Below, piece by piece: positions 7,871 through 32,225 of a stretch of DNA of 32,330 bases (the first letter of the stretch is position 1; the number at the start of each line of letters is the position of its first letter). The position numbers were made by a program, and so were the translations under genes. This stretch comes from Lentisphaerota bacterium (lineage in GTDB: Bacteria > Verrucomicrobiota > Kiritimatiellia > UBA8416 > JABMPJ01). Where the stretch lies: the NCBI GenBank assembly GCA_013203785.1, contig JABMPJ010000170.1, forward strand, positions 1-32,330, read 5' to 3'. The notes under the pieces are model-generated. The model saw only the letters and a list, made by a program, of their open reading frames with translations. It did not search any database and was not told the origin of the DNA.

Positions 7871-7877
7871 GTTACGA

Positions 7878-12946: not shown

Positions 12947-12955
12947 GGAACGACC

Positions 12956-13318: not shown

Positions 13319-13336
13319 GCACCGAGAGGATGACGG

Positions 13337-13705: not shown

Positions 13706-13710
13706 GTGCC

Positions 13711-13739: not shown

Positions 13740-13753
13740 CATAGTCTGGATGC

Positions 13754-14572: not shown

Positions 14573-14577
14573 GTCAT

Positions 14578-14606
14578 AAGTATAGACAGATATCGCATAT
14601 TCGCAA
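14578..14606 (-). promoter_or_regulatory. candidate sigma-70 promoter, leaderless with respect to the AraC start
   Basis: Reading the minus strand, TTGCGA (14606-14601) and TATACT (14584-14579) are separated by 16 bp. Transcription starting about 7 nt downstream would begin at the ATG at 14572, giving a leaderless message. No Shine-Dalgarno is visible before this ATG, which agrees. Confidence 0.45.
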
Positions 14607-14797
14607 CATAATTGGTGCATCGTATTCATGTGTACCGGATCAATGAGACGGGTTTATCCATACCAATACAGGCGGGATCAAGGTTAAACGGTTGAAACCA
14701 AGCATGGCGGGACGACGGGCACCGACGACATCATCTGCTACTGCCGCACACGCGGACGAGGCTGATCACGTCTGTGCATGATCAACGAAAGGACTGA

Positions 14798-15571: not shown

Positions 15572-16758
15572 ACTCACGCGAACGGGTACGGCTGATCTTG
15601 AATCACGAGGAGGCGGATCGGCCGGCGATCGATCTGGGCGCCATGTCGTGTTCCGGGATCTGCATGTGGATCTACCGTGATCTGAAGCGAGCGCTGGGCA
15701 TCGCGGGCGACCGGGTGACGGTTGGGAATCTCCAGTACATGCTGGCCCATGTCGAGGATGCGGTGCTGGATGCTCTCGGTTGCGATTTCGTGCCGCTTCC
15801 GGGCGAGGTGGATTTGACCGGTGTGGAGGCGGAACCCACCAAGCCGTTTACCTTTTGGGACGGGCAGACGTTTGAGGTGCCGGTTGGGTTTGATCCGGCC
15901 GTCGGTGCTGACGGATCACTGAATTGGCGCGGCCAATGTATGCCCCAGGGAGGGCGATTCCTGGATCCCGTCCCCGCACCAGCAGCGCCCATGAATGAGG
16001 ACGCGCCCGCCTTCCCCCCAGAATCGGAGTGGCACTTTGAGACGAGTTTGCCGGACGAGTTTCTGCGGGCGCAAGAGGCGCGCGCCCGGGCTCTATACGA
16101 GCGAACAGATCGGGCCATCATGGCCTGTCCTTGGCAGGGGGCCTTGTTTGCACCTCTGGTCGGGGCGATTGAGATGCTGACGGAACCTGAGACCAGCCGC
16201 GAGCACATCATGCGTCAGGCGGAAGCCGTGGCGCGATGCAACGAGCAGTATCTACAAGCCGTCGGGCCTTACATCGACGTGCTTCTGTTTGCCCCCGGCG
16301 ACTATGGGTACCAGGATCGGGAGTCATTCAATCCGGATCTGATGGGCGAGTTCTGGGTGCCCGCTTGGCGGCTCGTGACTGATGTCATACATCGCTTTCC
16401 CCATGTGAAGGTATTCTGCCATAGTTGCGGCTCGAACACCGGGTTCATGCCTCACTACATCGCGGCCGGCATTGACATATTCAACCCGGTGCAGTGGACG
16501 GCGCAGAACATGGATCCACGCTGGCTCAAGCGTGAGTTTGGCGACCAACTGACCTTCTGGGGCGGCGCCGTCAGCACGCAGCATACGCTGCCGTTCGGGT
16601 CACCCGATGAGGTCCGCCAGGAAGCGGAAGAGATGCTGAGCGTCTTTGCGCCGGGCGGAGGCTATGTCTTCAACGCGATCCACAACATCCTGGCCGAGGT
16701 ACCCATCGAGAACATTGTAGCCCTCTATGAAGCCGGGCAACGCTATCGGTATTCATAA
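15568..16758 (+). CDS. URO-D/methyltransferase-like TIM-barrel protein
   Basis: A 396-residue member of the uroporphyrinogen-decarboxylase superfamily, in the branch related to MtaA/CmuA corrinoid methyltransferases and not to haem HemE. It starts with NSRERVRLILNHEEADRPAIDLG and lacks the RQAGRYM anion-binding motif that true HemE proteins have (compare 31158-32225). The zinc-type HSC (H285, C287, in KVFCHSCGSN) near strand 5 fits a thiol-activating methyltransferase. Conserved family blocks GIDIFNPVQ and GGGYVFNAIHNI follow. Start at 15568 is fixed by the ATGA overlap with the PhyH gene. It may move a methyl group to or from a cofactor, but no corrinoid protein is encoded in the window. Confidence 0.87.
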   Translation: MNSRERVRLILNHEEADRPAIDLGAMSCSGICMWIYRDLKRALGIAGDRVTVGNLQYMLAHVEDAVLDALGCDFVPLPGEVDLTGVEAEPTKPFTFWDGQTFEVPVGFDPAVGADGSLNWRGQCMPQGGRFLDPVPAPAAPMNEDAPAFPPESEWHFETSLPDEFLRAQEARARALYERTDRAIMACPWQGALFAPLVGAIEMLTEPETSREHIMRQAEAVARCNEQYLQAVGPYIDVLLFAPGDYGYQDRESFNPDLMGEFWVPAWRLVTDVIHRFPHVKVFCHSCGSNTGFMPHYIAAGIDIFNPVQWTAQNMDPRWLKREFGDQLTFWGGAVSTQHTLPFGSPDEVRQEAEEMLSVFAPGGGYVFNAIHNILAEVPIENIVALYEAGQRYRYS

Positions 16759-16797: not shown

Positions 16798-17736
16798 TTA
16801 GCTCTTGAGCGCGGCTTCGCGGTCGCGCCAATAGCGCGCCGTGTCACCGACAAGCGTGTCCAGGCGCTGCGGATCCGGGCGGCCGAACATGGCCGGATAG
16901 GGATTACCGCCCGGCCCCAGGGGTTCTGGGGTGGCGAAGCGGTGTGCACCCGCGAAGCCGGCGACGTAGAGCGCCATGATGACGGCGTCCAGATCCAAGG
17001 ACCCGGCCCCTAAGGCACTGCGGTTGGAGTCGGCGAGATGCAGGTTAATCAGGCTGTCGCCGGCCTCACAGATCGCCTCGGCCACATTGGCTTCTTCTGA
17101 CTGCATGTGATAGGCATCGCCATTGATGTGCGCGACACCGGGATGGTCGACCGCCGCGATGTAGCGCTTGGCGTCGGCAATGGTGTGAACCAGCGACACT
17201 TCCGCCGAACGAATCGGCTCGATGGCGGCACGCACGCCAGCGGCAACAAAATCATCCGCGACCAGCCGCAGTGTCTCGACCGAGCGTTCAAACTCCATGT
17301 CGTCGTAAGCGCGTGGCCGTCCGACGGCACCGGGCACGACCAGCATGTAGGTGGCGCCAACGGCGTGGCAGAGATCGAGTTGCCGCCGGATGTAGTCGAT
17401 GGCATTCTGGCGCACGATCCCCGAGTTACTCGACAGGTCGTTTTCGGAGCCGAACATGCCGCACACACCGGCCACGGAGATGCCGTGATGTCCCAATGTG
17501 TCCAGGACGTCGTTGGCTCGGTAGCCGAGGTCAGCACCGTAGCGGTTTCCGTGCAGCTCGATCCACGTGATGCCGTGTGTCGCGAGCCGCTTGGCGGAGT
17601 CCGCGAGCGGTTCGAGGCCGAAGCCCCAGTTACTCCAGGAGAGCTCCAGCGCGTGTTGCTTGAGATCAGGAGATGTTTCCATGGTCGATCGAAACGCTTC
17701 GACCAGCTTGGCTCGCTTCTGTTCGTAGTTCTGCAT
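16798..17736 (-). CDS. sugar phosphate isomerase/epimerase (xylose-isomerase-like TIM barrel)
   Basis: A 312-residue AP-endonuclease-2/xylose-isomerase-like TIM barrel, a family of metal-dependent keto-sugar epimerases and isomerases. Candidate metal ligands lie where expected: E173 (AAIEPIRS), D207 (INGDAYHMQSEE), H233 (NLHLADSNRSALG) and a Glu near 271 (ATPEPLG). The ribosome site AAGGAG lies 9 nt before the ATG and overlaps the stop codon of the upstream short gene, which is only 11 nt away, so translation is probably coupled. No signal peptide, so cytoplasmic. The substrate is probably a ketose or inositol derivative but cannot be specified. Confidence 0.9.
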   Translation of the reverse strand: MQNYEQKRAKLVEAFRSTMETSPDLKQHALELSWSNWGFGLEPLADSAKRLATHGITWIELHGNRYGADLGYRANDVLDTLGHHGISVAGVCGMFGSENDLSSNSGIVRQNAIDYIRRQLDLCHAVGATYMLVVPGAVGRPRAYDDMEFERSVETLRLVADDFVAAGVRAAIEPIRSAEVSLVHTIADAKRYIAAVDHPGVAHINGDAYHMQSEEANVAEAICEAGDSLINLHLADSNRSALGAGSLDLDAVIMALYVAGFAGAHRFATPEPLGPGGNPYPAMFGRPDPQRLDTLVGDTARYWRDREAALKS

Positions 17737-18500: not shown

Positions 18501-20855
18501 CTAGACGGGCTGCTCCTCAGGCGTTGTCTCCAAGAGGGGCGTGTGCGTATGGCCCTGATAGCCTTGCAGCAGCGAGTAACTGGACATGGCGCGCGCGTAC
18601 CATCCTCCGCATTCGTACTCGTTGAAGGGGTTGCGCACGCGACCGTCGTAGCGTGATCGGGCACCGCGAACGATCTCCAGCCCCTCTTCTGTGCAGCCCA
18701 GCATCATCAGATGCGCCGCGACCTGGTACTCGATGCCCGTCCACACTTCGTCGGCATACACGAACGGCAACGACGGGCGACCGCCGTGGGGCCATGAGCA
18801 GAGCAGCAGCCCGGCCTCCTCTTCGATGGCAAAGCCCGGCCGTACCGTACAGGCGTGATCGTGCAGCGACGCGCGGAAGTTGTAGCGGTGCACCGCCCGC
18901 AGGTGCGAGCGGACCTTGTCCTCATCAAGAATAGGTCCCAGCAAACAGCACCGCGCCAGCCAGTCGCCGATGACGCCGTCCGAGAGGCAGCCCGGCCCGT
19001 ACTGATACTTGGGCCCCTCCTCCTCAAGCAACTCCAGCGATTCGGGGTCGTACACCGGCTTGATCATTACTCCCTCGTCCTCGGCCGCTGTGACCGGATC
19101 AGCGTGGTGTAGCTCCTTCCACATGACCTTCTGAATAAAGTATTCGCCGTTCCATAACTCGGATTCCATGGCCTGCCGACCACGCGCGTAGAGCTCGTGG
19201 TACAGGTTCACATCGTCGCCCAGCGCTTCACCCATTACCGCAGCGGCCTTCAGGGCTGCCAGGTAGAAGCTGGTGCACATACCGTCCGGGCCCCAGAATT
19301 CGATATCGTACGTGTTGTGATGGGGTTCGCTTACCAGACCGTTGTGGTCCGGGTCCCAGGTCAGGATACAGTAATCGAGGCTTTCGCGAGCCTTGGGCCA
19401 GAGGGAGCGCAGCCAGTCCGTGTCGCCACAGATGCGCCATTCCCTGTGCAGCTTGACGATGCCGCCGAGTTGCCCGTCCGCCGCGGCGTAGCTGTTGTGC
19501 CTGGGTTCGCGGATGGGAAGTTCGCCGCGGAAGCTCTGGTGTCCGCTCTCGTCCTGGTTGACCAGGAATTCCGTCTCACGCAGGCCGCGCTCCAACTCGG
19601 GGAAAAGGTGAGGCAGGGCTTGGGCATAGTTCCACACGTGGGAGCAGGATCCCCAACAGGATCCGGTGTGATCGAAGCAGCCTTCCCAGCCATAGAGCCG
19701 TCCGTCATGTTGCCGCAACACGGTCGGCGACTTGAGTATATACAGGTTGGCCCCCACGGCTTCGAGGATCTCGGGTGGTAGCGTGGTATCGTAGAGGTCA
19801 TTCGTGAAGGCCTCGGTGCGGGCGCGGCTGTCGCGATAGGTGGCGTGCCAATGGTCGGCGGTTGCTTCGAGCGAGGGGAATCGCGCGATATGCCACGGCG
19901 TATAGCTGCCTGCGGGCGCGCAATTGTTGAGGTCCGTGTAGCGCGGCTCCCACTGGTCCGAAACAGGCATGTACCACGTGATCGCGAGGGTGACGGTGCG
20001 GCTCTCGCCGGCGGGCAACCGTAAGGGCACATACAGGCTGCCGCCCACGCTCGGACCGAAGGCGTCTTCGTGCGGCGGACGGTCGAGACGCTTACCGGCA
20101 GCGACGTTGCGCCAGAGCATGGTCATCGTGTCGTGCCAGCCGCCGCGGAACCAGGCCGCGTCGGTCGTGGCCCCGTGGTCGAGCACGTCGATCGCCACAT
20201 GGCCCTCGTCGTGCGGAGCGGCTTCGCTGCCGTCGTTGTGGAATGCAAGACCGTTCGGGCGCTTGGTGATCCGTCCTTGTTTGGCCCAGGCGCGGTGCGC
20301 GAATGCCGGATTGAACGCATGGAACGAGAAGACGGTGTCGAGGTGGGTTGCGGTTGGGTTCGTAAAGGTGTACTCCAGTCCGATCACAGGCAGGCTGCCT
20401 GCATCGACGTCGCCGGGAACGAACGGGCTCCAGCCCGTGAGTTCGACGCGAACGGGCATATCCTCATCGCTCAGCCGTACATGGCCGAAAGGGAAGCGTG
20501 CCTCGAACTCGGCTTGGCGGAACCGCGGTAGACTGTTGGCCCCGCTGGGCATGGCGACGCCATGCAGGGGGTGGTTCCCCGGCCCGTCGGGAATGCCGCC
20601 CCCAAAGATCCGGTCGCGCGGGATCGGCCCTTCGAGCAGGCGTGTCACGGGTTTATCACCCGCCACGTGCAGGCAGCCGAACATGGTTTCAGCCCCCATA
20701 AGACCGGGTTTATGATGCAGGCAGAAACCACTAAAGCCGCCGTTGCCGTTGAGCTGGATCATGCCCGCGCCAAGCCCGCCCATGGGCATGGCGACGTGCT
20801 CGAGATGGGCGCCCTTGTAGGGTCCATTGAAACGATGCGAGGGGGGGCGGGGCAT
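18501..20855 (-). CDS. GH116 family beta-glycosidase (GBA2-like)
   Basis: A glycoside hydrolase of about 784 residues from clan GH-O, related to non-lysosomal glucosylceramidase and the archaeal and bacterial GH116 beta-glucosidases/xylosidases. The N-terminal part is the beta-sandwich domain (GGLGAGMIQLNGNGGFSGF, EYTFTNPT). The C-terminal part is the (alpha/alpha)6 barrel (WGSCSHVWNYAQALPHLFPELE, HNTYDIEFWGPDG, YADEVWTGIEYQVA). Alignment by eye to GBA2 places the nucleophile at E510 (GLVSEPHHNTYD) and the acid/base at D626 (CLSDGVIGDW). No signal peptide, so it acts on imported glycans. The ATG at 20855 is chosen because MPRPPSHRFNG fits the family start; the frame opens at 20951. It lies 124 bp downstream of the large secreted protein and probably acts in the same pathway. 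Confidence 0.9.
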   Translation of the reverse strand: MPRPPSHRFNGPYKGAHLEHVAMPMGGLGAGMIQLNGNGGFSGFCLHHKPGLMGAETMFGCLHVAGDKPVTRLLEGPIPRDRIFGGGIPDGPGNHPLHGVAMPSGANSLPRFRQAEFEARFPFGHVRLSDEDMPVRVELTGWSPFVPGDVDAGSLPVIGLEYTFTNPTATHLDTVFSFHAFNPAFAHRAWAKQGRITKRPNGLAFHNDGSEAAPHDEGHVAIDVLDHGATTDAAWFRGGWHDTMTMLWRNVAAGKRLDRPPHEDAFGPSVGGSLYVPLRLPAGESRTVTLAITWYMPVSDQWEPRYTDLNNCAPAGSYTPWHIARFPSLEATADHWHATYRDSRARTEAFTNDLYDTTLPPEILEAVGANLYILKSPTVLRQHDGRLYGWEGCFDHTGSCWGSCSHVWNYAQALPHLFPELERGLRETEFLVNQDESGHQSFRGELPIREPRHNSYAAADGQLGGIVKLHREWRICGDTDWLRSLWPKARESLDYCILTWDPDHNGLVSEPHHNTYDIEFWGPDGMCTSFYLAALKAAAVMGEALGDDVNLYHELYARGRQAMESELWNGEYFIQKVMWKELHHADPVTAAEDEGVMIKPVYDPESLELLEEEGPKYQYGPGCLSDGVIGDWLARCCLLGPILDEDKVRSHLRAVHRYNFRASLHDHACTVRPGFAIEEEAGLLLCSWPHGGRPSLPFVYADEVWTGIEYQVAAHLMMLGCTEEGLEIVRGARSRYDGRVRNPFNEYECGGWYARAMSSYSLLQGYQGHTHTPLLETTPEEQPV

Positions 20856-20978
20856 GGGGCGTCGTCCTATATGTTGACTGGTTGAGTCTACAGCTGCGGC
20901 AATGCTCGGGGGGCTGTCGGCACCGCCTGTTACCCCGCCCCCCGGCCGCATTGAGCCACTCGTGGTGACGTATCCGGA

Positions 20979-23900
20979 TTAGAGTCCCGAAGGTGATTTC
21001 AGTACTACGGCCTGCTCCACTGTTACGCCTGTGAGGACATCTTCGACCTCCAGAACCCATTCCCCGCGCAGGTCATTGACGGCGAAGGTTAAACTGTGAG
21101 TCACGCTACCATCTTCCGTCAGCAGGCGGCGAGCATACTCTCGACTGGTATGGCCTTCAGGGTCACGCAGCGTGAGCTGTAGCGGCAGGGGCGTCGTCAG
21201 GACGGTGGCCTCGCTGTCGCGGACATACACGCCGAGCGAAATCTCGATTCCGGGCGTCACCGTCTTGGGGACACCGACCACCTCCAGTGTGGCCGGCAGC
21301 GCCGGCAGGAACACAATCAGCATGCCGTCCCACTTGGAGATTTCCAGCGCCACGGTCATCTTGCCGTCCATCCGCACGGCGTCCAAGGCGCGACCACCAA
21401 ACACATCGAAGGGTATCCGTCCGTCGTCCTCACGGGTCAAGGTGGTGGTCACCACATCCTGGCGATAGCCCAGCTCATCTTCGAGCGCACGTGCCTCGTC
21501 CGGCGCGGCCTGCTTCGAGCGCTTCAGTCGGCCGAGCTCGTCCTTCGTGTAGTTGTGCACCAACCAGACGCCGGGTGTGCCGTCAGGCAGCGCCGCACGT
21601 CGAACCATCACGAACGGATCGTCGCAGTCGACGACCGGTGGGGCGAGCGGTAGCAGCGCTTCGCGCACTGCGGCAATGCGATCTGCTTGACCGTATGTGC
21701 CGCTCCCTGAGTAGACGGGTAAGGCCTCCCGCATCGTGGCTCCGGCGATCGGAATAGCCGCCGCCGTCGCGCTATCGACCACCACGGTGCCCCCGCCTGC
21801 AATGTAGTCCTCCAGCAGCGCCGCCGTCCCGGCCTTGAGCCACTTGGTCTGGGTCAGAATCACGGCCTCATAGGCCTTGATGTTGATGGCGTTTAACTCC
21901 TCCGGGCTCACGGGTTCTACATCGGTCTTAGCGAGCAGAAAATCCATGTAGGAATACGCCATCATATAGCCATTCGGAATATGAATCGTGACATTCTCGA
22001 ACGGTACGAGCATAGCGACCCGCTTGGGCAGAGGCCGGAGCGCCTCCAGCAGTAGCCCGAAGCGCTTCGACCATGCCCCAAATCCACGCATGGCCGAGAG
22101 TGCCTCGGGCATGTCATTGCCATCCGTAAAGTAGGGTATCCCCTGCGCACCACCGGCAAACAGAAGCCACAGGTTGTTGCGGTAGAACGATTCGTAATGG
22201 AAGTGATAGCTTTCGGGCATGAGCCATTGCTCGATATCGCGGTTACCCATGCGTTGGGCCTCGAGCCACCAGACATGCGTCATGGGGGGCTGCCAGTAAC
22301 TGTTGTAGTAGTAGCAGGAGGCCATACTAAATCCATCCAGCTTACCGGAATTGAAGGGAGGATACTGTCCCGACCACATGCTGATTGTCGGAATCTGCAT
22401 GGCACCTGGAATGCTGCCGACCTTGCCCTCGCCACCGGTCGCGGCTTCCATCGCGCGCGCAAAGCGCCGCCCGGAGTCGCCCAAAGTCTCACTCCAGTAG
22501 CGGCAGAGTAGTAGCCACGGGTCGTCATCGGCCACAATACCCGGTTCGCGCGGAACATCAACCGTTCCGAAGGGATCCTCGGCCTCTATCGGCCGCGGTG
22601 GCTCGATGCCATAGCGTGCGCGGAATCCCTCCACGGCAAACCGGTTGTAGTCGAGGCCGAACCATTGACTGTAGTCATCGGCGGTGACAGTGCGCTTCCG
22701 GAAGGCGGGCATATCGCCGTTGAGCTCGGCGACCAGACGCCCGAACTCGTCGGCCTCCGCCTGCCGTTGGAAGGGGCTGGCGAAGCCATGGGATTCTCGC
22801 TTGTCGCCGTGGGCACGCACGCGCAGGACCTCGCCGCTGCCGCCGCGCCGGTAGGTGTCATAACCCAGCGGGCTGACAATGTTCCGCACGTGTCCGTGCC
22901 GCCGTGAGGAGTAGCTGAACCCATACCAGAGCGCGAGGTCGCGACCGATGGGCAAATCACCCCAGAACATGGGTTCCAGGTTGTGGGAGGCCAACATATC
23001 GAGGCGGTTTTCGGTACGAAACTGCTTGGGGGAGGCGGAGCTCGAGAGGGCGATGTGCGTGCCGCGATGATCAGGGAGGGGGGCGATGCGCAACTCGCGC
23101 TCGACCCGGATCGATTCAGCGCCGCACGTTACGTCCGCGGCAACGGTGTAGATCCCCACGCGTAGCCCGCTCAGATCGAACGCGCCAATCAGGGCGTCCG
23201 CTTGTTCCTGGCTCACCGGCACCATGACGCTGTTCTCGCGCAACACCGCATCGCCCTCGTACAGGGCCACATGCACACTCACCTCATGAATCGAGGCGTC
23301 AAAAGTCTGGGCGCGCAGGACCAGGGGAACCATCTCACCGCGAAGATACACCATGCGCCGATCGGCGTCGCCATACCGCAGCGCAGCCTCGATCGGTACG
23401 GTCGCGGCCGGCAGAGGATCCGGAGCTGGCACATCCACGGCCGTGCCCGAATAGCGGGCAAACCGATAGACGTTGGACAGCAGCGCTTCGGCGGCGGGGC
23501 TGGCGATGTCCGGGACAAAAATAAAACCGCTGAAGGGCACTTCGGGTCGAAGGTTCACCAGGCCCACGCCGGTGAACTCGCCTGTGGGATCGGTCACGAA
23601 CGGAAGTGTGACACTGCGCGTATGGACCGGGCGCACGAGACCACTAGCCGGCTCAAGGCCCCACGCTTTGCCGACGGCTGTGAGCGTGGGGTGAGTCCCC
23701 GTCCCGTAGGCGGTCTTCCGATCAGTCGTCAGTCCCAGCATCTCCTGGGATGGCGCACTGCCGTACTGCTTATGAGGCCCTCGTTCCCCCTGAGCCAGGT
23801 ACATGGGGATGTTGGACAGCCAGACCACACGTCCCCCGGCCCGCATATAGTCGGCCAGCAGACACTCGGCATAGGGCGCGTACACGACATTCATGGGAGC

Positions 23901-24656
23901 CATCCCCATGGCAAAGATGATCGAACTACCGATACCGGCATCGCCCTCGGATCGGGCCTTCATCCAGCGCTCGGTTTCGATGGCGCTCATGGCGGGCACG
24001 CCGCGACGGGTAAAGAACGCCGCCACACCCGGTGCATCATTGACCCAGTGCGTATCGTAGGTCGGGTCGTAAAAGAGCACCGTCTCGTCAATGGCCCAGC
24101 GTGCCAGATCGGCGGCGCTGAACTGAACCGCACCGCCCGCCAGCTTAACGACCGAGCCTGGTGCCGCGCGCTGGGGGTCGGTGCCGTAGTAGCCCAGTAA
24201 TTGATAGCTCTCCTGGGCGGCGGCCCAGGCCGCCTGCCGCTCGGCGTCAGCGGGCGCGATGGCGGTCCAATCGATCACGAACTCCTGTGCAGCACCGCCG
24301 CTGTAGCTGAGAGTAAAAACGGTATCGTCAGGCGCTGAGACCTCAAAGAGCAACCCGTATAGACCGGGCTCAGAAGCCAATCGCTGCGTGCGATTCTCGC
24401 CGCCGCCGGAGAGGGCGAGCAGGCCGGCGCCACCACCGAACACCTGTAGCTCGTAGAGGCCCGGTGTGATGCCAACGGTCCTTGTCAGTTCGGCACTTAC
24501 CAGCAGTGCTGTCGCCCCTTCGCGCGGTTGTAGGCTGCCCTCGGTCTTCTGCCAACCGGAGTCGGTTGTCGACAGATCCGCTGGCGTGCGGTCGGTAATG
24601 TCGCTCGCAAGAGCGGTGGTCGCGATCAGTAACAGGGATAGTATGCGCATCTTCAT
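20979..24656 (-). CDS. very large secreted protein, putative novel glycoside hydrolase
   Basis: A 1225-residue protein with a clear signal peptide (about 1-17, ILSLLLIATTALA). By eye it reads as a beta-rich N-terminal part (20-150). A class-I amidotransferase-like domain follows (about 230-400, with YAPYAECLLADYMRAGGRVV), then an Ig-like stretch (about 420-540). A central region (about 550-860) rich in Trp, Tyr and acidic residues, such as SYHFHYESFYRNNLWLL and GAQGIPYFTDGND, resembles GH-A clan barrels. A second amidotransferase-like domain (about 880-1000, YEAVILTQTKWLKAGTAALL) and beta domains close the protein. Barrel plus amidotransferase-like domain recalls the GH42 architecture, but I do not recognise the family. 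AAGGAA precedes the ATG. The neighbouring GH116 and two GntR regulators support a glycan-degrading role. Confidence 0.72.
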   Translation of the reverse strand: MKMRILSLLLIATTALASDITDRTPADLSTTDSGWQKTEGSLQPREGATALLVSAELTRTVGITPGLYELQVFGGGAGLLALSGGGENRTQRLASEPGLYGLLFEVSAPDDTVFTLSYSGGAAQEFVIDWTAIAPADAERQAAWAAAQESYQLLGYYGTDPQRAAPGSVVKLAGGAVQFSAADLARWAIDETVLFYDPTYDTHWVNDAPGVAAFFTRRGVPAMSAIETERWMKARSEGDAGIGSSIIFAMGMAPMNVVYAPYAECLLADYMRAGGRVVWLSNIPMYLAQGERGPHKQYGSAPSQEMLGLTTDRKTAYGTGTHPTLTAVGKAWGLEPASGLVRPVHTRSVTLPFVTDPTGEFTGVGLVNLRPEVPFSGFIFVPDIASPAAEALLSNVYRFARYSGTAVDVPAPDPLPAATVPIEAALRYGDADRRMVYLRGEMVPLVLRAQTFDASIHEVSVHVALYEGDAVLRENSVMVPVSQEQADALIGAFDLSGLRVGIYTVAADVTCGAESIRVERELRIAPLPDHRGTHIALSSSASPKQFRTENRLDMLASHNLEPMFWGDLPIGRDLALWYGFSYSSRRHGHVRNIVSPLGYDTYRRGGSGEVLRVRAHGDKRESHGFASPFQRQAEADEFGRLVAELNGDMPAFRKRTVTADDYSQWFGLDYNRFAVEGFRARYGIEPPRPIEAEDPFGTVDVPREPGIVADDDPWLLLCRYWSETLGDSGRRFARAMEAATGGEGKVGSIPGAMQIPTISMWSGQYPPFNSGKLDGFSMASCYYYNSYWQPPMTHVWWLEAQRMGNRDIEQWLMPESYHFHYESFYRNNLWLLFAGGAQGIPYFTDGNDMPEALSAMRGFGAWSKRFGLLLEALRPLPKRVAMLVPFENVTIHIPNGYMMAYSYMDFLLAKTDVEPVSPEELNAINIKAYEAVILTQTKWLKAGTAALLEDYIAGGGTVVVDSATAAAIPIAGATMREALPVYSGSGTYGQADRIAAVREALLPLAPPVVDCDDPFVMVRRAALPDGTPGVWLVHNYTKDELGRLKRSKQAAPDEARALEDELGYRQDVVTTTLTREDDGRIPFDVFGGRALDAVRMDGKMTVALEISKWDGMLIVFLPALPATLEVVGVPKTVTPGIEISLGVYVRDSEATVLTTPLPLQLTLRDPEGHTSREYARRLLTEDGSVTHSLTFAVNDLRGEWVLEVEDVLTGVTVEQAVVLKSPSGL

Positions 24657-24743
24657 CGTGTGTTCCTTTTCATTTGGGAGTGTACAGTGCCAGTGTAGTC
24701 GATAGCCGTCCCTGAGCCGCGACGCTCTGACAGAGCTATATGA

Positions 24744-24756
24744 GGGGCACCGCCCC
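24744..24756 (-). terminator. small GC hairpin after the minus-strand GntR gene
   Basis: GGGGC (24744-24748), a 3-nt loop and GCCCC (24752-24756) lie 27 bp past the stop of the GntR gene. On the minus strand it is followed by TCATATAG, so a T-tract is lacking. It may be a weak terminator separating the regulator from the secreted protein gene. Confidence 0.35.
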
Positions 24757-24783
24757 GTTGTTCTTGTTCAGCCCGTGTCTATA

Positions 24784-25968
24784 TCATTTACCCATCGCCT
24801 CATGTCCCTGCTCATCAATCACGCGCGCCCCCAGCATCACGCTTGCGGGCAATTCACCATTGATCTGCTCGCGAACGGAGGTCAGCAATGCCGCTGCCGC
24901 CTCGTCCGCACTGTTCTCCATAAATGTTGCCGGGAACGGGCATAGAAGCTGTAGCTCTTTGTTGCGGTGCAGCGCAAGCCGCAGGTCCTGCGGGACGTCC
25001 ACACGATGGCCGAGAATGGCCGTGATGACGCCCGCGACCATCACATCATCTCCCACGAGAAGTCCGTCAGGTTTCCGCGAGCGCGACCAGATTCGGCTGA
25101 AGGCGTCGTAGCCGAAGCGCTCCCAGGTTGCGGAGCCCTGAGCATCGAGAGAGGCGTTGCCGGCCTCGATCCATTCATCGCGCAGCTCCAGCCCATGGCG
25201 ACCGCACACATCGACGAAGCGCTCAAAGGCCAGCGCATACGGGTGCATGTTGCCATCCGGTCCGCAGTGCTCCGGGTGCCACGGCGCGATCAGACCGACA
25301 GACCGGCATCCCCGGCGGCTGAGCGACTCGACACCCAACTCGACAAGACAGCGCACGTCATTGGAGACGTGCGCGCCCTCGCCCTCGGCGGCAAGCGAGA
25401 CCGTGGGTGCCGGGAACTGGGGCAACCATTTGAGCGGCTGTCCGGTACTGTTCAGCACGATGACGCCCCGCAGCTCCCTGCTCGTGGCCGCTTGGGCGAG
25501 AGAGAGAGGTGCTGTGGCCTCCTGATCGGCCTGTGAGCGGGGGTCCGCCCACATTCGCAAATGGAGCCCGGCATCCTTTGCGCGGCGCCCAAGGGCACGC
25601 ACGACCGCCCGCTCGTAGGCGTGATCGGGGCCGGCCGCAGCCAGGTTGATGCACTGGTAGACCCCGATGCAGGCTGCGCACTGCGTGTGGGTGCTTGCGG
25701 TGTACGTGCCTCTGCCGTGGACCCGCGTGAGCAGGCCCTCGCGGGTCAATTGGGACATCGCCAGATGAATGGTCGACGGGCTGATGTCCCATAGATTGGC
25801 GAGCAAGCGTGTGGTGGGAAACGGCCTGTTGGCGGGGATCTGGCTAGACCGCAGTCGTCCGCTGACAAAATCGACAATCTGAGGCACCATTCCTTCCGAA
25901 GAATCCGGCGCGAATGATTTCAGGACTCTGATCGTTCGGTCGTCAATTGCGACAGGCGCACGAGACAT
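24784..25968 (-). CDS. GntR-type regulator with LacI-like sensor domain
   Basis: A 394-residue repressor-like protein. Residues about 25-90 are a GntR winged helix (PTTRLLANLWDISPSTIHLAMSQLTREGLLTRVHGRGTYTAS). The rest is a periplasmic-binding-protein-like sensor as in LacI and AraR (RGCRSVGLIAPWHPEH, DGLLVGDDVMVAGVITAIL, DLRLALHRNKELQLLCPFPATF). AraR of Bacillus has the same fusion and binds arabinose; the ligand here is unknown. The ATG at 25968 is fixed by AAGGAGGG directly upstream; the frame extends to 26046. It is divergent from a paralogue at 26149-27330 with which it shares the control region. It lies upstream of, and on the same strand as, the large secreted protein and GH116, its probable targets. 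Confidence 0.9.
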   Translation of the reverse strand: MSRAPVAIDDRTIRVLKSFAPDSSEGMVPQIVDFVSGRLRSSQIPANRPFPTTRLLANLWDISPSTIHLAMSQLTREGLLTRVHGRGTYTASTHTQCAACIGVYQCINLAAAGPDHAYERAVVRALGRRAKDAGLHLRMWADPRSQADQEATAPLSLAQAATSRELRGVIVLNSTGQPLKWLPQFPAPTVSLAAEGEGAHVSNDVRCLVELGVESLSRRGCRSVGLIAPWHPEHCGPDGNMHPYALAFERFVDVCGRHGLELRDEWIEAGNASLDAQGSATWERFGYDAFSRIWSRSRKPDGLLVGDDVMVAGVITAILGHRVDVPQDLRLALHRNKELQLLCPFPATFMENSADEAAAALLTSVREQINGELPASVMLGARVIDEQGHEAMGK

Positions 25969-25995
25969 ACAATACCCTCCTTGAAGTGAATGCAC

Positions 25996-26025
25996 ACTAT
26001 AAGACACTATCATATTGTATGTCAA
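25996..26025 (-). promoter_or_regulatory. sigma-70 promoter of the minus-strand GntR gene
   Basis: Reading the minus strand, a perfect TTGACA (26025-26020) and TATAGT (26001-25996) are 18 bp apart. The expected start of transcription, near 25990, leaves a leader of about 20 nt containing the strong ribosome site before the ATG at 25968. The direct repeat ACACTAT (25994-26000 and 26004-26010) overlaps the -10 and could be an operator half-site pair. Confidence 0.65.
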
Positions 26026-26073
26026 AATAGATCTCGCTAAAAACAACTATCACTTTGTTCTTAATTTATATCT

Positions 26074-26110
26074 TGACAATTGATCCCGCTCCCTATATTA
26101 CATCAATTGT
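26074..26110 (+). promoter_or_regulatory. promoter and inverted-repeat operator of the plus-strand GntR gene
   Basis: TTGACA (26074-26079) and TATATT (26095-26100) are 15 bp apart, or ATATTA at 16 bp. The perfect inverted repeat ACAATTGAT (26077-26085) and ATCAATTGT (26102-26110) brackets the -10 element, with centres 25 bp apart. A related TTAATTGTA follows at 26122-26130. The arrangement is that of an autoregulated repressor. Confidence 0.6.
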
Positions 26111-26148
26111 TTTAAGGCATATTAATTGTATTAGTGATTGTACTTCTT

Positions 26149-27330
26149 ATGACTCCATGCGACACAGCTACCGAGATCCCAGTGGATCACTTGTTTTCGC
26201 TGAATGGGGAATCCCCGGTTAGCGAACAGGTTGCCGCACATGTGCGCAGCTTCATTCGATCCGGGCGGTGGCCGGTTGACCACCGGCTTCCCTCCACACG
26301 CGCGCTGGCAGAAGCGTTCAGCGTGGCACCGCTAAACGTTCAGACAGGGATGCAGCAGTTGGTTCGGGAGGGGCTTCTGACACGCGTGACCGGGCGAGGC
26401 ACCTTCGTCAGAAAGACTAGTCGGAAACTAGCGTGCATAGGCGTTTATGACTCGTGCGGCGTTGATACCCATGCCGAAATGGCGTTCAGTCGCCGCTTGC
26501 TCACGGAACTGCAGGGGCTGGGTGCAGCGGCGGACATTGACCTGCGGGTATTTGTGGACACTCGGGATAGAACCACGCTTTGTGACAAGCCGCCACTTGA
26601 TCTGGCGAACGCCTGTGCGGGCGGTGAGATCCAGGGGCTAATCACTCTAAGCGCTGAGGACAACGATTGGCCATGGCTGAATAAGTTGCCTGTGCCACTG
26701 GCTGCTATCGTAAATTGGGCGCAGACGGGCAAGGTGCAGCCGGATCGGTCTCAATTGATGGACCTCGCCGTGCGGGACTTGGCGCGACGGGGGTGTCGCT
26801 CGGTGGGGCTGCTGGATATCTCGCGAGTTGATATGCGGGCCCCGAACAGCCTGGGCGCCCGGGCAGTGAGCATGTTCAAGAGGCGGTCGCATGAGTTGGG
26901 CGTGGAAACACGCGATGCATGGATGCTGTTGCCATCGCCGGATTTCCATGACGATTTCCTGACACATGAGGAGTACGGTTACATCCGCTTCAAACGGCTC
27001 TGGAGTCTCGCTGAGCGTCCTGAGGGTCTCGTCGTGATCGACGACGTCGTGGCGCGTGGTGTGCTGCTGGCGTTGTTGGAGCATCGGGTTCACGTGCCCG
27101 AGGAACTACAGCTCACCATCCAACGCAATCGGGAATGCAAGCTTCTGTGTCCGGTACCGGCCTCCTTTGTCGAGTTGAGTGTGCGTGAAGTGGCAGCAGC
27201 GTTGATGAAGGACTTGAGCCGACAATTCAATGCGGTCCCTCGCCCGGTTATTACCGTGCCGTTTCGCCTTGTTCCGGCGGAACGGGCGTACCATCGGAAC
27301 GAGGGCGAATGTGTTGGATACGGGGGGTAA
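26149..27330 (+). CDS. GntR-type regulator with LacI-like sensor domain (paralogue)
   Basis: A 393-residue regulator with the same plan as its divergent neighbour. The GntR winged helix lies in residues about 15-85 (PSTRALAEAFSVAPLNVQTGMQQLVREGLLTRVTGRGTFV), followed by a LacI-like sensor (RRGCRSVGLLDISRVDMR, EGLVVIDDVVARGVLLALLEHRVHVPEELQLTIQRN). The two share a C-terminal block around RNRECKLLCPVPASF versus RNKELQLLCPFPATF, so they are duplicates of one ancestor. The ATG at 26149 is chosen; a GTG at 26134 is an alternative, and neither has a clear ribosome site. It is followed 23 bp later by the discoidin-like secreted protein on the same strand, which it may regulate. Confidence 0.88.
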   Translation: MTPCDTATEIPVDHLFSLNGESPVSEQVAAHVRSFIRSGRWPVDHRLPSTRALAEAFSVAPLNVQTGMQQLVREGLLTRVTGRGTFVRKTSRKLACIGVYDSCGVDTHAEMAFSRRLLTELQGLGAAADIDLRVFVDTRDRTTLCDKPPLDLANACAGGEIQGLITLSAEDNDWPWLNKLPVPLAAIVNWAQTGKVQPDRSQLMDLAVRDLARRGCRSVGLLDISRVDMRAPNSLGARAVSMFKRRSHELGVETRDAWMLLPSPDFHDDFLTHEEYGYIRFKRLWSLAERPEGLVVIDDVVARGVLLALLEHRVHVPEELQLTIQRNRECKLLCPVPASFVELSVREVAAALMKDLSRQFNAVPRPVITVPFRLVPAERAYHRNEGECVGYGG

Positions 27331-27353
27331 ACCAAAGAAAGGGAGATGCGAAG

Positions 27354-28478
27354 ATGAAGGCTCGTTTGAAGAGACAGTGGATATGGGTTGCGGCGGCGAC
27401 GGTGCTTGCGGCGGCGGTTATGGAGACCAGAGCGGATGAGATTCTAATCGTACCCACAACCGGGACGGCGTCACACAACGTTGGCGCGCGCAACGGCACC
27501 AAGACGATTGATGGTACGGAGCTGAGTACGAATGCGGCGACCGGAACGACGGTTCCGATGTCGTGGCCGACCGCTGGTAACATAGCCGACCACACATGGG
27601 TCGGGGCTAGCACCGCCCCGACCATATCATGGGATCTGGGGGCGCTCTACGTGCTGTCCGGCTTCCACCTGTGGAACTACAACGGGAGCGATTCGTCAGG
27701 AAACCGTGGGATCAAGACGGCGACTGTTTATGCGAGCGATGACGCTGTCGGAGCGGTCACGACGAACCTCGGCAGCATGACATTCACCGCCGCCCCCTTG
27801 ACGGCTGGCTATACTGGCGAGGACTACAGCCTATCCGTGACGACTCGGTACGTGCGCATGGTTACCACCGACGTGTTCCCCGACAATGACGGGTATACGG
27901 GCCTGAGCGAAATCCGCTTTGTGGGCACACCGGTGCAGCCCTTGGGGGAGGTGGTGAAGGCTGTCTCTGCGACGGTATCGCACAGTGTTGGCGCGCGCAC
28001 CGGAACCAAGACGATTGATGGCACGGAGATGAGTACCAATCCGGCGACGGGAACGCCCGTGCCGACGACATGGGCCTCTATCGAGGGCAGCGCCTACGAC
28101 GGATCGTGGGTGGGGAACAGTGCATCGCCCATCATTACCTGGGATCTGGGCGAGGCCTACTTGGTCGGCGGGTTCCACCTGTGGAACTACAACGCAAGCG
28201 ATTCAGCAGGAAACCGAGGGATCAAGACCGCCACAGTTCATCTCTCGAACGACCCCACTTTCGCCACCTATACAGATTCCGGCAGTCTGACGTTCGCGCC
28301 GGCGCCGTTGGTTCTGGGGTACGTCGGCAAGACCTACTCGCTACCAGAGCCCGTAAAGGCGCGATACGTGCGCTTCAATACGACGGCCGTCTTTCCTGAC
28401 AACGACGGTTACACCGGACTGAATGAGGTCCTGTTTATCGACGTGCCCCCTTCGGGCACGGTTGTTATCCTAAGATAG
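27354..28478 (+). CDS. secreted protein with two tandem discoidin (F5/8C)-like domains
   Basis: A 374-residue protein with a signal peptide (about 1-27, cleavage near TRADE). Two similar domains follow, about 33-192 and 202-364. Each begins VGAR-x-GTKTIDGTE-x-ST, has TWVG or SWVG and I-x-WDLG in the centre, then GGFHLWNYN-like and NRGIKTATV segments, and ends RYVR-x-x-TT-x-VFPDNDGYTGL. This is the pattern of galactose-binding-like/F5-8C carbohydrate-binding modules. No catalytic domain is visible, so it probably binds glycans at the surface or in the medium. The end (PPSGTVVILR) has no PEP-CTERM sorting signal. AAGGGAG precedes the ATG at 27354. It follows the GntR gene by 23 bp. Confidence 0.82.
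   Translation: MKARLKRQWIWVAAATVLAAAVMETRADEILIVPTTGTASHNVGARNGTKTIDGTELSTNAATGTTVPMSWPTAGNIADHTWVGASTAPTISWDLGALYVLSGFHLWNYNGSDSSGNRGIKTATVYASDDAVGAVTTNLGSMTFTAAPLTAGYTGEDYSLSVTTRYVRMVTTDVFPDNDGYTGLSEIRFVGTPVQPLGEVVKAVSATVSHSVGARTGTKTIDGTEMSTNPATGTPVPTTWASIEGSAYDGSWVGNSASPIITWDLGEAYLVGGFHLWNYNASDSAGNRGIKTATVHLSNDPTFATYTDSGSLTFAPAPLVLGYVGKTYSLPEPVKARYVRFNTTAVFPDNDGYTGLNEVLFIDVPPSGTVVILR
27462..28439 (+). repeat. tandem duplication inside the discoidin-like gene
   Basis: The segments 27462-27929 and 27966-28439 are direct repeats with a period near 504 bp (168 codons). Long stretches are almost identical in DNA, for example GACGATTGATGG and CCACCTGTGGAACTACAACG in both copies. Conservation at the nucleotide level indicates a fairly recent duplication or gene conversion. 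Confidence 0.75.
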
Positions 28479-28757: not shown

Positions 28758-30140
28758 CTAGTGGCTGCGTAGATACTGCAGCACATGGGTGGCTGCGGTT
28801 TCACCCGATGCGATGCAGTCGGGGATACCGACGCCGTTGAACATGGCACCGGCCATGAAGAGTCCGGGGTGCTGGGCCAGTCGGCAGTTAACGGAGTCTA
28901 TGCGGTCCAGGTGTCCCATGTTGTACTGCGGTAGTGCGTTGGGATAGCGGATGATGCGATGGAAGAGCGGCGGGGTGTCGATCTGGAGCGTTGACCTGAT
29001 CTCATCTCTGGCGATGTCGAGCAGGCGGTCGTCTTCATACTGTGTCACGTCGGTTTGGTCGTAGCGGCCCACATAGACGCGCAGGAGTAGTGTGGTGCTG
29101 GGGGCTCGGTCACGCCACTTGCGAGAGGTCCAGGTGCAGGCCAGGGCTTCACGCTGCTCAATGCGGGGAATCAGATAGCCGTATCCGTCCAGCACCGGGA
29201 GGTCCGCTTCATCGAACGCTAGGTTGACCAGCGCGGTCGAGGCATAAGGGATGTCGAGCAGTGTCGCGGCCCATTCGGCATCGAGCGTGCTGAGGAGCTG
29301 ACTGCTCACGAAAGCCGGTGTGGTGATGATGACCGCCTCTGCGTGGAGGGGCTCCGCTTTGGGCCCGGAGAGCTGAAGCAGGTAGCCGCGCTCGATGGGG
29401 TCCACGTGGGTGACCGCGACGTTGAGGCGAAGGTCCACGCCCGTTAGTTGCCCAACTAACGCATCCACCAGCGTCTGCATGCCGTTCTTAAAAGAAACGA
29501 ATGGAGGATAGAGTGGGGCGGGGGCGGGCTGCTGGAGGTTGAGGCCCTTGAGTAGGCTGCCGTGTTCTTGCTCCAGTCGGCGCAGCTGAGGGAACATGGC
29601 GGCCAGACTCAACTGATCGGCCTGGCCAGCACAGATGCCGCCCATGAGAGGTTCAACCAGGTGATCGAAGGCCTCTCTCCCGAGACGGCGTGAGATGAAC
29701 GAGGCGACGGACTCGTCGTCGCTGCCGGGGCGCGGTGGGAGCGTGGGCTCCTGCGTTACATGCGCGATGCCCTCCGCAGAGAGCAGTGAGGAGTTCGTCA
29801 AGGCGTCGAGTTGGGTGGGGATCATGCCGGTCAATCCACTGGGTAGCGGATGCAGGCGGCCGTCTCGCAGGACGAAGGTCTTGGCATGATCCGGGTCGCG
29901 CCCTATCAGCTGATCTGCGATGCCCAGTGATTCACAAAGGGCTATTCCGTGCGGCTTGCGAGAGAGAAAGCAGTCGGGCCCTGATTCGATTAGAAACCCG
30001 TCAACATGTTCGGTGGCGATCTTGCCGCCCCACTGGGCTGACGCCTCAACCAGTGTCAGTGTGAGCTCGGGAGCGATGTGGTGCAGTTGGTATGCGGCGG
30101 AGAGTCCTGCAATGCCTCCTCCTATGATCACTACATTCAT
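28758..30140 (-). CDS. hemG: protoporphyrinogen oxidase, oxygen-dependent (HemY type)
   Basis: A 460-residue FAD protein that oxidises protoporphyrinogen IX to protoporphyrin IX with O2, the penultimate step of haem synthesis. The N-terminal dinucleotide motif is GGGIAGLSAAYQL (about 7-19), followed by GWGGKI-type sequence and IESGPDCFL. The C-terminus has the FAD-closing block AGAMFNGVGIPDCIASGETAA. This is the HemY-type enzyme, also called HemG in many annotations, unrelated to the flavodoxin-like E. coli HemG. It is the last gene of hemE-hemH-hemG. No Shine-Dalgarno precedes the ATG; the leader instead contains a period-8 repeat. Confidence 0.93.
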   Translation of the reverse strand: MNVVIIGGGIAGLSAAYQLHHIAPELTLTLVEASAQWGGKIATEHVDGFLIESGPDCFLSRKPHGIALCESLGIADQLIGRDPDHAKTFVLRDGRLHPLPSGLTGMIPTQLDALTNSSLLSAEGIAHVTQEPTLPPRPGSDDESVASFISRRLGREAFDHLVEPLMGGICAGQADQLSLAAMFPQLRRLEQEHGSLLKGLNLQQPAPAPLYPPFVSFKNGMQTLVDALVGQLTGVDLRLNVAVTHVDPIERGYLLQLSGPKAEPLHAEAVIITTPAFVSSQLLSTLDAEWAATLLDIPYASTALVNLAFDEADLPVLDGYGYLIPRIEQREALACTWTSRKWRDRAPSTTLLLRVYVGRYDQTDVTQYEDDRLLDIARDEIRSTLQIDTPPLFHRIIRYPNALPQYNMGHLDRIDSVNCRLAQHPGLFMAGAMFNGVGIPDCIASGETAATHVLQYLRSH

Positions 30141-30152
30141 TGGGTGTCTCGT

Positions 30153-30200
30153 GTAGCTGCGTATGTGGGTGTGTGGGTAAGTGGGTATGTGGGTGGGAGA
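30153..30200. repeat. period-8 octamer array (GTNNGTGG) between hemH and hemG
   Basis: On the plus strand 30161-30192 is four exact-phase 8-mers: GTATGTGG, GTGTGTGG, GTAAGTGG and GTATGTGG. Degenerate copies flank them (GTAGCTGC before, GTGGGAGA after). It occupies most of the 85-bp hemH-hemG spacer and is the same repeat family as at 28572-28677. On the transcribed strand it is a C-rich leader directly before hemG. Confidence 0.75.
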
Positions 30201-30225
30201 GGGTGGTGTTGGGATCGATGCCTGT

Positions 30226-31161
30226 TCACGACCATCCGCGTTCCTTTGCCTTTGCTATCACCAGATCGGCCAACTGTTGCATGAACAGGGGATCGGTATT
30301 CAGCGCGGGCGGGCGTTCGAGGCGTACTCCGTATCGCTTCGCGACGCGCTGTGCTTTGATGTCAATGTCGTAGAGGATCTCCACATGATCGGAGACGAAA
30401 CCGATCGGGACGGTCACCACATTCCTGATTCCGCGTTCGGACAGCTCGGGCAGGTAGGCGTCGAGCTGCGGTCCCAACCAAGGCTCCGGACTGCGGCCTG
30501 CCGATTGGTAGCTCCATGACCATTGGTCATCGCGCAGGCCCGCTTGACGTGCAATGAGGGCGGCCGTCTCCAGGAGTTGGCGTTCGTATGGGTCGCCCGC
30601 TGCGATGATGCGCACGGGCAGGCTGTGCGCGCTGAAGACGACGTGGACTTTATCTCGCTCCGCTTCGGGCCATCGTCCGATTCCCTCGAGTACGCGGTTG
30701 GCTAGCGGGGTGATCAACCCAGGCACATCGTGATAGCTGTCGATATGAGCACACTCCATCTCGCCCCGCTGCAGGGTGAGTCCGGCGTGCAGTCGTTCCT
30801 GGTATTTGACGACGCTCAACGTGCTGAAGTGGGGGGCCAGTACGAGGCTCATGGCCTGTTCGATGCCGTCGTCGAGCATCGTGCGAACCGTGTCCTCGAT
30901 CCATGGTGCCCAATGACGCATCCCGAGGTAGACGGTGAACTGTTGTGGGTCAAGGAGCGCTGCGATGGCTTCAGACTGGGCCGTCGAGCAGGCGAGGAGC
31001 GGTGAGTGTCCACCGATCTGCCGATAGATATCGGTGATGTCATCGAGGACGTCCGGCGGGGTTACGCGGCCCTGCCTGATGTCGGCCAGGAAGCCGGGGA
31101 TTTCATCCAGCGTGTTTGGTCCGCCGTAGGCCATCACGATAACACCAATGGGATGTGTCAT
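30226..31161 (-). CDS. hemH: ferrochelatase
   Basis: A 311-residue ferrochelatase inserting Fe(II) into protoporphyrin IX, the last step of haem b synthesis. The catalytic His is H179 in SAHSLP and the conserved Glu is E261 in FVSDHVEILYDID. WSWSYQSAGRSPEPWLGP (about 214-231) and the N-terminal AYGGP are family signatures. There are no C-terminal iron-sulphur cysteines, as in most bacterial soluble enzymes. The ATG at 31161 is fixed by AGGAGGG 5-6 nt upstream and by the ATGA overlap with the hemE stop; the GTG at 31167 is too close to that site. Order hemE-hemH-hemG means tight co-expression of the last steps, although the coproporphyrinogen step is not encoded here. Confidence 0.95.
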   Translation of the reverse strand: MTHPIGVIVMAYGGPNTLDEIPGFLADIRQGRVTPPDVLDDITDIYRQIGGHSPLLACSTAQSEAIAALLDPQQFTVYLGMRHWAPWIEDTVRTMLDDGIEQAMSLVLAPHFSTLSVVKYQERLHAGLTLQRGEMECAHIDSYHDVPGLITPLANRVLEGIGRWPEAERDKVHVVFSAHSLPVRIIAAGDPYERQLLETAALIARQAGLRDDQWSWSYQSAGRSPEPWLGPQLDAYLPELSERGIRNVVTVPIGFVSDHVEILYDIDIKAQRVAKRYGVRLERPPALNTDPLFMQQLADLVIAKAKERGWS

Positions 31162-32225
31162 GCCCACCCTCCTGTGGGCGGTGTGAGGGTCCGTTCGTGC
31201 ACGTAATCCACAAGGCGCTTGACATTGTCAACGGGGGTCTCTTTGAAAATACCGTGGCCGAGATTGAAGATGTGGCCCGGTCGGCCCGCGATCCTGTCCA
31301 GCACGTCATCCGCCCTGAATTTCAGTTCGCGCCAGTTAGAGAGGAGGGCGATCGGGTCCAGGTTGCCTTGGATTGGTCGATCCGTCCCGACCCGGGTCCA
31401 CACTTCATCGATCGGCATGTGCCAGTCCACGCTCAGCACGGTGCCCCCGCACTGTGCAACGGCTTCGATATACGAGGAGGTGCCTGTGCTGAAGTTGATG
31501 AGGGGGACATCGAGGTCGGCCAGCATATGGAAGAGTTGCGTGTTGAAGGGTTGAACGTAGTGGATGTAGTCCAGCCGCCCCAAGGCGTGGCCCGCCCAGG
31601 AATCGAATAGTTGCAGCGCCGCCGCGCCAGCCTGCACCTGCTTGCGCATGTAATCGGCCTGCACGGTGACCAGCTTATGCATCAGGCGTTGCCAGGCGGT
31701 GGGCTCATTGTACATCAGTGTCTTGGTCCGTTGGTAGGTCTTGGAGCCGCCGCCCTCGATGGCATAGCTGGCCAGTGTGAACGGTGCCCCGGCGAAGCCG
31801 ATCAACGGGGTGTGATGACCCAGCTCGGCCGAGACCAGTTTGATGGCACCCAGTGTCCCTGACATGGTCTGCTCCGCCGGTGGGGTGGCCAGGCGATCGA
31901 TATCATAGGGCCGCTCCAGGCGGTTGTGCAGGACGGGTCCCTCGCCCTTAACAAACTCAAGGTTCAATCCCATGCCCATCAACGGCGGCAAGATGTCGGA
32001 GAATATGATCGCGGCGTCCATCTCGAAGGCCTTGATGGGCTGCAGGGTCAGTTCTGCGGCCAGCTCAGGGGTGTGAATGCAGTCGAGCATCGAATATTTG
32101 GCGCGAACATCGAGGTAGTTGCGCATATAGCGCCCGGCCTGACGCATAAGCCATATCGGCGTGGCGTCGACGGGCAGCCCGGCGCAGGCGCGCAGGAAGC
32201 GGGAAGCTGGTGCAGCGTTCATCAT
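31158..32225 (-). CDS. hemE: uroporphyrinogen decarboxylase
   Basis: A 355-residue HemE that decarboxylates uroporphyrinogen III to coproporphyrinogen III. The anion-binding RQAGRYM (28-34) and the catalytic Asp in IIFSDILPPL (D77) are intact, as are GFAGAPFTLASYAIEGGGSK and the C-terminal FNLGHGIFKETPVDNV. Length is normal, in contrast to the URO-D-like paralogue at 15568-16758, which lacks the arginine motif. Two ATG codons in tandem (32225 and 32222) could start it; no strong ribosome site is visible. Its stop overlaps hemH as ATGA. Confidence 0.96.
   Translation of the reverse strand: MMNAAPASRFLRACAGLPVDATPIWLMRQAGRYMRNYLDVRAKYSMLDCIHTPELAAELTLQPIKAFEMDAAIIFSDILPPLMGMGLNLEFVKGEGPVLHNRLERPYDIDRLATPPAEQTMSGTLGAIKLVSAELGHHTPLIGFAGAPFTLASYAIEGGGSKTYQRTKTLMYNEPTAWQRLMHKLVTVQADYMRKQVQAGAAALQLFDSWAGHALGRLDYIHYVQPFNTQLFHMLADLDVPLINFSTGTSSYIEAVAQCGGTVLSVDWHMPIDEVWTRVGTDRPIQGNLDPIALLSNWRELKFRADDVLDRIAGRPGHIFNLGHGIFKETPVDNVKRLVDYVHERTLTPPTGGWA

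Follow-up and report, generated by a model that had tools for sequence, protein, structure and literature searches.

The 32,330-nucleotide stretch of Lentisphaerota bacterium DNA considered here (contig JABMPJ010000170.1; the whole stretch is called the window) raises the question of what is done by a large, secreted-looking protein of 1225 amino acid residues, encoded directly upstream of a glycoside hydrolase (GH) gene of family 116. On balance, we favor the view that this protein, secreted and built of several domains, acts as a glycoside hydrolase from an uncharacterized family derived from the GH42 fold, and that it feeds import and a GH116 step. Its glycosidase nature is probable from the predicted structure and the alignments. 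The gene and its predicted segments are as follows.

20979-24656, minus strand: secreted-looking protein of an uncharacterized GH42-like family, 1225 residues, ATG start
24603-24656, minus strand: signal-peptide-like N-terminus, residues 1-18 (by eye)
24243-24518, minus strand: beta sandwich like carbohydrate-binding modules CBM6/35/36, residues ~47-138 (low-confidence model)
23418-24089, minus strand: first amidotransferase-like domain (GH42 B-domain/ThuA-like), residues ~190-413 (fold match)
23082-23393, minus strand: Ig-like beta domain, residues ~422-525 (secondary structure of the model)
22047-23072, minus strand: (beta/alpha)8 barrel, residues ~529-870 (predicted structure and profile comparison)
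21471-22019, minus strand: second amidotransferase-like domain (GH42 trimerisation-type), residues ~880-1062 (model, profile)
21300-21470, minus strand: GH42 C-domain-like beta domain, residues ~1063-1119 (fold match)
21039-21257, minus strand: MG2/Ig-like C-terminal domain, residues 1134-1206 (PF01835, E 5.4e-5, below the Pfam cut-off)

Because homologues of about 850-1820 residues with 24-31% identity occur in several phyla, the reading frame is judged to be a real gene and not a chance one. The N-terminus, MKMRILSLLLIATTALA-SD, is hydrophobic and signal-peptide-like, and the relatives have comparable hydrophobic N-termini (both judged by eye). The domain order given by the model is signal, CBM-like sandwich, amidotransferase-like, Ig-like, barrel, amidotransferase-like, beta and MG2-like. 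This agrees with the initial annotation, which had described a barrel between two amidotransferase-like domains and beta modules but could match the arrangement to no named family. The latter statement holds for sequence families: Pfam gave three weak matches, all under cut-off (MG2, and GLMA_2nd and ABC_transp_aux near residues 899-961), and NCBIfam gave zero. It does not hold for the fold, which is recognizable. Sequence searches of the PDB gave no significant match (best E 0.26; a BgaB fragment at E 0.27). Judged from the Pfam, NCBIfam, PDB sequence and literature searches, the family is uncharacterized.

Residues 18-1217 were modeled with AlphaFold2 from a 16-row alignment (model residue n is protein residue n+17), with a mean predicted local distance difference test score (pLDDT) of 77 and a predicted template modeling score of 0.73. 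A Foldseek search with this model, a check that the initial annotation had proposed, returned GH42 and GH164 enzymes as the top PDB matches, the best being 4oif (E 3.9e-14); a BFVD fold search gave poor matches only. The GH42-type match covers model residues ~512-1100 (protein ~529-1118), and the model contains the complete three-domain architecture of GH42, i.e., the barrel, the amidotransferase-like trimerisation domain and the C-terminal beta domain. With VIA-align, the GH42 enzymes 3tts (Z-score 20.4, 502 residues aligned, 4.2 Å) and 5xb7 (Z 20.2) matched, as did, over the same region, GH164 (Z 19.5), the GH35 glucosyltransferase IaSGT (18.7), the GH96 alpha-agarase 9m0b (18.1) and the GH151 fucosidase 6tvk (17.2); GH5 Op5Man5 gave Z 15.3. 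A family missing from these lists was not treated as excluded. PMC8233224 describes GH42-type architecture outside GH42, in the GH164 beta-mannosidase Bs164 and in Op5Man5 with its catalytic pair Glu156/Glu281. Both are alike to the present family in architecture and fold, with no significant sequence match to it.

The N-terminal part was also folded separately (residues 18-445, pLDDT 66). Residues 173-396 of the N-terminal model match the GH42 B domain (5xb7 398-622; Z 11.5, 194 residues, 4.1 Å), and the first amidotransferase-like domain matches ThuA-like 1t0b (Z 9.3). Sandwiches of the CBM36/CBM6 type match model residues 30-118 (Z 8.4, 86 residues, 2.4 Å), a moderate match in a weak region of the model. 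By analogy with GH42 trimers, both amidotransferase-like domains are probably structural and would serve assembly.

The family alignment was compared by hhalign with nine genuine PF02449-carrying proteins from related genomes (9 of the 15 loci listed), which gave a probability of 98.0% (E 3e-13, 380 columns); a narrower alignment gave 91.4%. The order of barrel, amidotransferase-like B domain and C-terminal beta domain is that of GH42 enzymes (e.g., 3tts, 5xb7, 1kwg), and so are a D/E-x-x-R motif before strand 7 and a strand-7 acid at W + 4. However, the family has Asp-Asp for the strand-4 Glu, its strand-7 acid is mostly Asp, and the 1225-residue protein is secreted-looking and carries extra CBM-like, second amidotransferase-like and Ig-like domains. 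The PF02449 profile (Glyco_hydro_42) does not match this protein at E up to 1, nor eight more proteins (two core, six broader) at E 0.1; four of the six broader ones show weak PF08532 instead. By these comparisons the family is homologous to GH42 and yet no member of it, since both the strand-4 Glu and the Pfam match are missing. The shared fold and the significant profile match would also suit an ordinary divergent GH42 beta-galactosidase. This is very improbable in view of the same two differences and of the extra N-terminal 500 residues.

The proposed active site lies in the following two places.

22674-22679, minus strand: D660-D661, end of barrel strand 4, the GH42 acid/base position (model and alignment)
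22212-22214, minus strand: E815, the GH42 nucleophile position (alignment)

Conservation was counted on 12 core alignment rows, and three broader rows (L046, L051, L054) were counted apart. In the GH42 row L088 we take E160 (after N159) to be the acid/base and E313 the strand-7 nucleophile; both columns are invariant among the nine GH42 proteins. The strand-4 motif of the family is N/S/A-Asp-Asp, directly after model strand 635-642, with D660 and D661 each present in 12 of 12 core rows and the GH42 Glu not retained. Position 815, four residues past the invariant W811, is Asp in ten core rows and Glu in two (the 1225-residue protein and L038), and is thus acidic in all 12. Also found in 12/12 rows are D669, Y782, Y784, W797, R802, R806 and W811, while E799 is found in 11; E799-x-x-R802 is the counterpart of D298-x-x-R301 in GH42. 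The conserved Glu pair that the initial annotation had expected to seek in the central region is absent, the two positions being Asp/Asp or Asp/Glu.

Several observations weigh against assigning catalysis to these residues. Ten of the 12 core rows retain neither Glu of the GH42 pair, and the core rows are partly non-independent (L072 and L077 are 85% identical, L037 and L040 82%). The three broader rows keep Asp-Asp (3/3) but have Ser, Ser and Asn at 815, so that the pair is not universal. There is a doubt of one residue at both sites, because hhalign pairs the GH42 Glu with D661, leaving D660 unpaired, and places GH42 E313 one residue off E815. To our knowledge, no activity is known for any homologue. 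The changed Glu positions and the missing strand-7 acid in L046, L051 and L054 might indicate a non-catalytic secreted protein, a glycan binder or scaffold in which the GH42 fold persisted although the catalytic Glu residues were lost. We regard this as quite unlikely, since drift under binding alone would not need acids at both positions in every core row, nor the many invariant barrel residues.

In a more specific form of the hydrolase reading, which is possible and which we advance tentatively, this would be an unclassified GH family built on the GH42 fold, in which a duplicated amidotransferase-like domain precedes the barrel and Asp has replaced the catalytic Glu (Asp-Asp at strand 4, Asp/Glu at strand 7). 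The mechanism would be altered, for example inverting or with a GH151-like strand-4 Asp nucleophile, and so would the substrate, perhaps alpha-L- or arabinofuranosyl. The shorter side chains on both sides could widen the distance between the carboxylates towards an inverting geometry.

The strand-4 Asp also invites comparison with fucosidases. In the GH151 enzyme ALfuk2, Asp154 at the end of strand 4 is the nucleophile and Glu235 at the end of strand 6 the acid/base (PMC10154630). This enzyme (6tvk) shares the layout of barrel, Rossmann and beta domains, and in the model D660/D661 come right after strand 4, as its nucleophile does; it is without the N-terminal CBM-like/Rossmann extension. The GH96 alpha-agarase Cm-AGA (9m0b) likewise has a GH42-like module (chain 846-1442) in a larger protein, preceded by a CBM-like domain (700-805), and Asp994 and Glu1129 are its proposed catalytic residues, with Asp779 and Asp781 for AgaE (PMC11311870). 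However, it has no significant sequence match to the family and was compared by fold, not residue by residue. Because GH151 uses and GH96 is proposed to use Asp, and both are fold matches, a strand-4 Asp in a GH42-like fold has precedent, by analogy, for an alpha-linked L-sugar.

One might accordingly ask whether the protein is a GH151/GH29-like alpha-L-fucosidase, with the strand-4 Asp as nucleophile, another residue as acid/base, and alpha-L-fucosides or similar L-sugars as substrates. Beyond the fold matches, neighboring genes speak for it: at locus L035 the family member is preceded by a GH29 gene (5764-7041) and, at 7099-8286, a regulator of the GntR/LacI type, and at L042 there is a GH95 gene (4792-7233) with a cut regulator of the same type. 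Such fucosidase-type genes were found near these two family loci only, and the YYYN stretch in the place of the GH151 strand-6 Glu has no conserved acid, though pLDDT is low there. We therefore hold the fucosidase assignment to be unlikely. A further gene, which matches no Pfam family, is homologous between the two loci (27% identity over 611 residues), and a third locus, L041, has a GntR/LacI-type regulator at 5516-6628. The regulators at the three loci and the GH29 and GH95 genes also speak for the favored hydrolase reading, as do the GH116, regulator and epimerase-like genes of the window.

Enzymes with the GH42-type three-domain structure span beta-galactosidase, beta-mannosidase and alpha-L-fucosidase, with a related alpha-agarase module. 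If the favored reading as a secreted hydrolase is true, the Asp-bearing family would illustrate how mechanism or substrate shifts within one fold, and would offer a testable glycan-breakdown enzyme for the poorly cultured Lentisphaerae/Kiritimatiellota, Verrucomicrobia and Planctomycetota. A concrete first substrate is suggested by the neighboring gene.

18501-20951, minus strand: GH116 enzyme, ExoMA2-like (subfamily 4 type), 816 residues (Pfam, PDB match)

This gene lies 27 bases downstream of the 1225-residue gene on the same strand. Its product matches PF04685 (E 4.3e-51) and PF12215 (E 1.8e-32) and has, by eye, no signal-like N-terminus, so that it looks cytoplasmic. In the PDB it matches ExoMA2 best (8ic6, E 2.4e-111), and the beta-glucosidase TxGH116 type comes next (6.6e-20). 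PMC10509167 describes ExoMA2 as an exo-beta-D-arabinofuranosidase with catalytic Glu431/Asp557 and specificity residues His446/Arg483. In the present protein E423, D549, H438 and R475 meet Glu431, Asp557, His446 and Arg483 (with a constant offset of 4 in chain numbering), and the same four letters occur in 4/4 GH116 homologues read (L103, L104, L108, L109; L105, L106 and L107 were left out). Since ExoMA2 is the closest match and its four active-site residues are kept, a beta-glucosidase label would mislead. The GH116 label of the initial annotation needs correcting in that the resemblance is to ExoMA2 and not to the beta-glucosidase type, and our first guess from sequence is an exo-beta-D-arabinofuranosidase-like activity.

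The locus of ExoMA2 is one for D-arabinan and also encodes GH183 and GH172. In the present case, a search for GH183 (DUF4185) found nothing either in the own genome (93.7% complete) or in 14 control genomes, so that it had no positive control; GH172-family matches lie on two contigs, C92 and C111. A full D-arabinan locus was therefore considered a weak idea. A conserved pairing of the GH116 and 1225-residue genes was rejected as well: tblastn found no GH116 gene in 12 further loci, from family members or broader relatives, whose flanks were of very unequal length, and this too counts against the favored reading. A GH116-like gene occurs somewhere in 5/5 family-bearing genomes versus 1/4 genomes of the same genus without the family, in a small and related sample.

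The remaining genes of interest around the pair are listed below.

24784-26046, minus strand: regulator with GntR helix-turn-helix and LacI-type sensor (Peripla_BP_3), translation probably beginning at the ATG near 25968 (Pfam)
26134-27330, plus strand: second, divergent regulator with GntR helix-turn-helix and LacI-type sensor (Peripla_BP_3) (Pfam)
24675-24692, no strand: imperfect palindrome ahead of the 1225-residue gene, candidate operator (sequence)
16798-17736, minus strand: xylose-isomerase-like sugar epimerase/isomerase, possible later step (PF01261, E 6.5e-29)
27309-28478, plus strand: double F5/8C (discoidin) protein that looks secreted and may bind glycans (Pfam)

The paired GntR regulators noticed initially are both found; they are divergent and 35% identical to each other. 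Their arrangement of a GntR head and a LacI-type sensor resembles that of AraR. A promoter-like site is located at 26025-25996, by the first regulator. The motif TGTACA occurs 3 times in the window, where 3.2 are expected, and only the longer palindrome is therefore of note. For the isomerase-like gene, another search gave below-cut-off matches only. The open reading frames (ORFs) and Pfam confirm that the secreted-looking protein lies directly upstream of the cytoplasmic-looking GH116 enzyme and downstream of a sugar-type regulator on one strand. In line with the initial annotation, none of the 25 window ORFs run against Pfam (of 68 listed, many overlapping) hit a transporter family.

We infer the following order of steps. 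The glycan would be bound by the CBM-like module and cut in the GH42-type barrel by two carboxylates, an Asp of strand 4 (either D660 or D661) and the strand-7 Glu/Asp (E815); this pair would replace the Glu/Glu of GH42. A transporter whose gene lies elsewhere would take up the resulting sugars or oligosaccharides, and the GH116 enzyme, encoded in the same direction, would trim them in the cytoplasm. The sugar isomerase may act downstream of that enzyme, and the paired regulators would control the locus. The initial annotation had proposed such a two-step glycan locus. Gene order and Pfam families are consistent with it, but the GH116 gene is not seen beside other members; the model is therefore a local inference, although a plausible one.

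The family is spread thinly over several phyla. A single-sequence search matched 8 of 57 relatives, mostly just over the C-terminal part. Barrel-covering members occur in 5 of 345 class genomes (two in G000, one each in G005, G007 and G165, two in G475), and in three more class genomes the match, at E 1e-40, runs from profile position 634 onward only. A scan of one-genome-per-species contigs with the single protein gave nothing, while a four-row alignment gave 8 loci, in metagenome-assembled genomes labeled Lentisphaerae, Planctomycetota, Phycisphaeraceae, Armatimonadetes and Verrucomicrobia, with one unlabeled. Loci L035, L038 and L039 were judged to be the same contigs across scans as G005:C12, G007:C132 and G165:C102, respectively. 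No relative was found in the plasmids and viral contigs searched.

Besides the 1225-residue protein, the own genome encodes a single further member, L002 (28% identity over residues 204-1224), with a frame of ~1820 residues and an F5/8C-like stretch in front; F5/8C proteins similar to that at 27309-28478 lie beside it. The own-genome paralogue is also recorded at L081 (G000:C60), 9592-15057, with F5/8C-like stretches and a separate F5/8C-like protein beside it (8332-9480). In a 15-row tree the 1225-residue protein groups with L036, L038 and L039 (support 93/93), which are without most of the N-terminal ~400 residues, and L002 falls in the other group. At L080 (G475:C37) two members stand in tandem (8721-12458 and 12557-15625, 85% identical), the second truncated by the contig end.

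The C-terminal third matches large proteins in 39 of 387 phylum genomes (E 1e-20), mostly without a barrel match. Many of these (e.g., L047, L050, L057-L071) have about 1050-1300 residues, some show weak matches to the GH42 trimerisation domain, and in alignment A3 the strand-4 place is occupied by Glu in L047 and L050. Together they make up a wider, still untapped set of GH42-like proteins.

Elsewhere in the window, a ThuA-family protein adjoins a GFO/IDH/MocA oxidoreductase (626-2501), another sugar-type gene pair. A sigma-70/extracytoplasmic function sigma factor is followed by an NrsF-type anti-sigma factor (8710-10045), and a fused MsrA-MsrB gene by an ORF 52% identical to part of the fusion (10102-11789). 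A PhyH-type dioxygenase gene overlaps a URO-D-like one, with an AraC regulator close by (14798-16758). The region 28758-32225 holds a haem cluster with a URO-D family gene (PF01208) and, by eye only, ferrochelatase-like and protoporphyrinogen oxidase-like genes.

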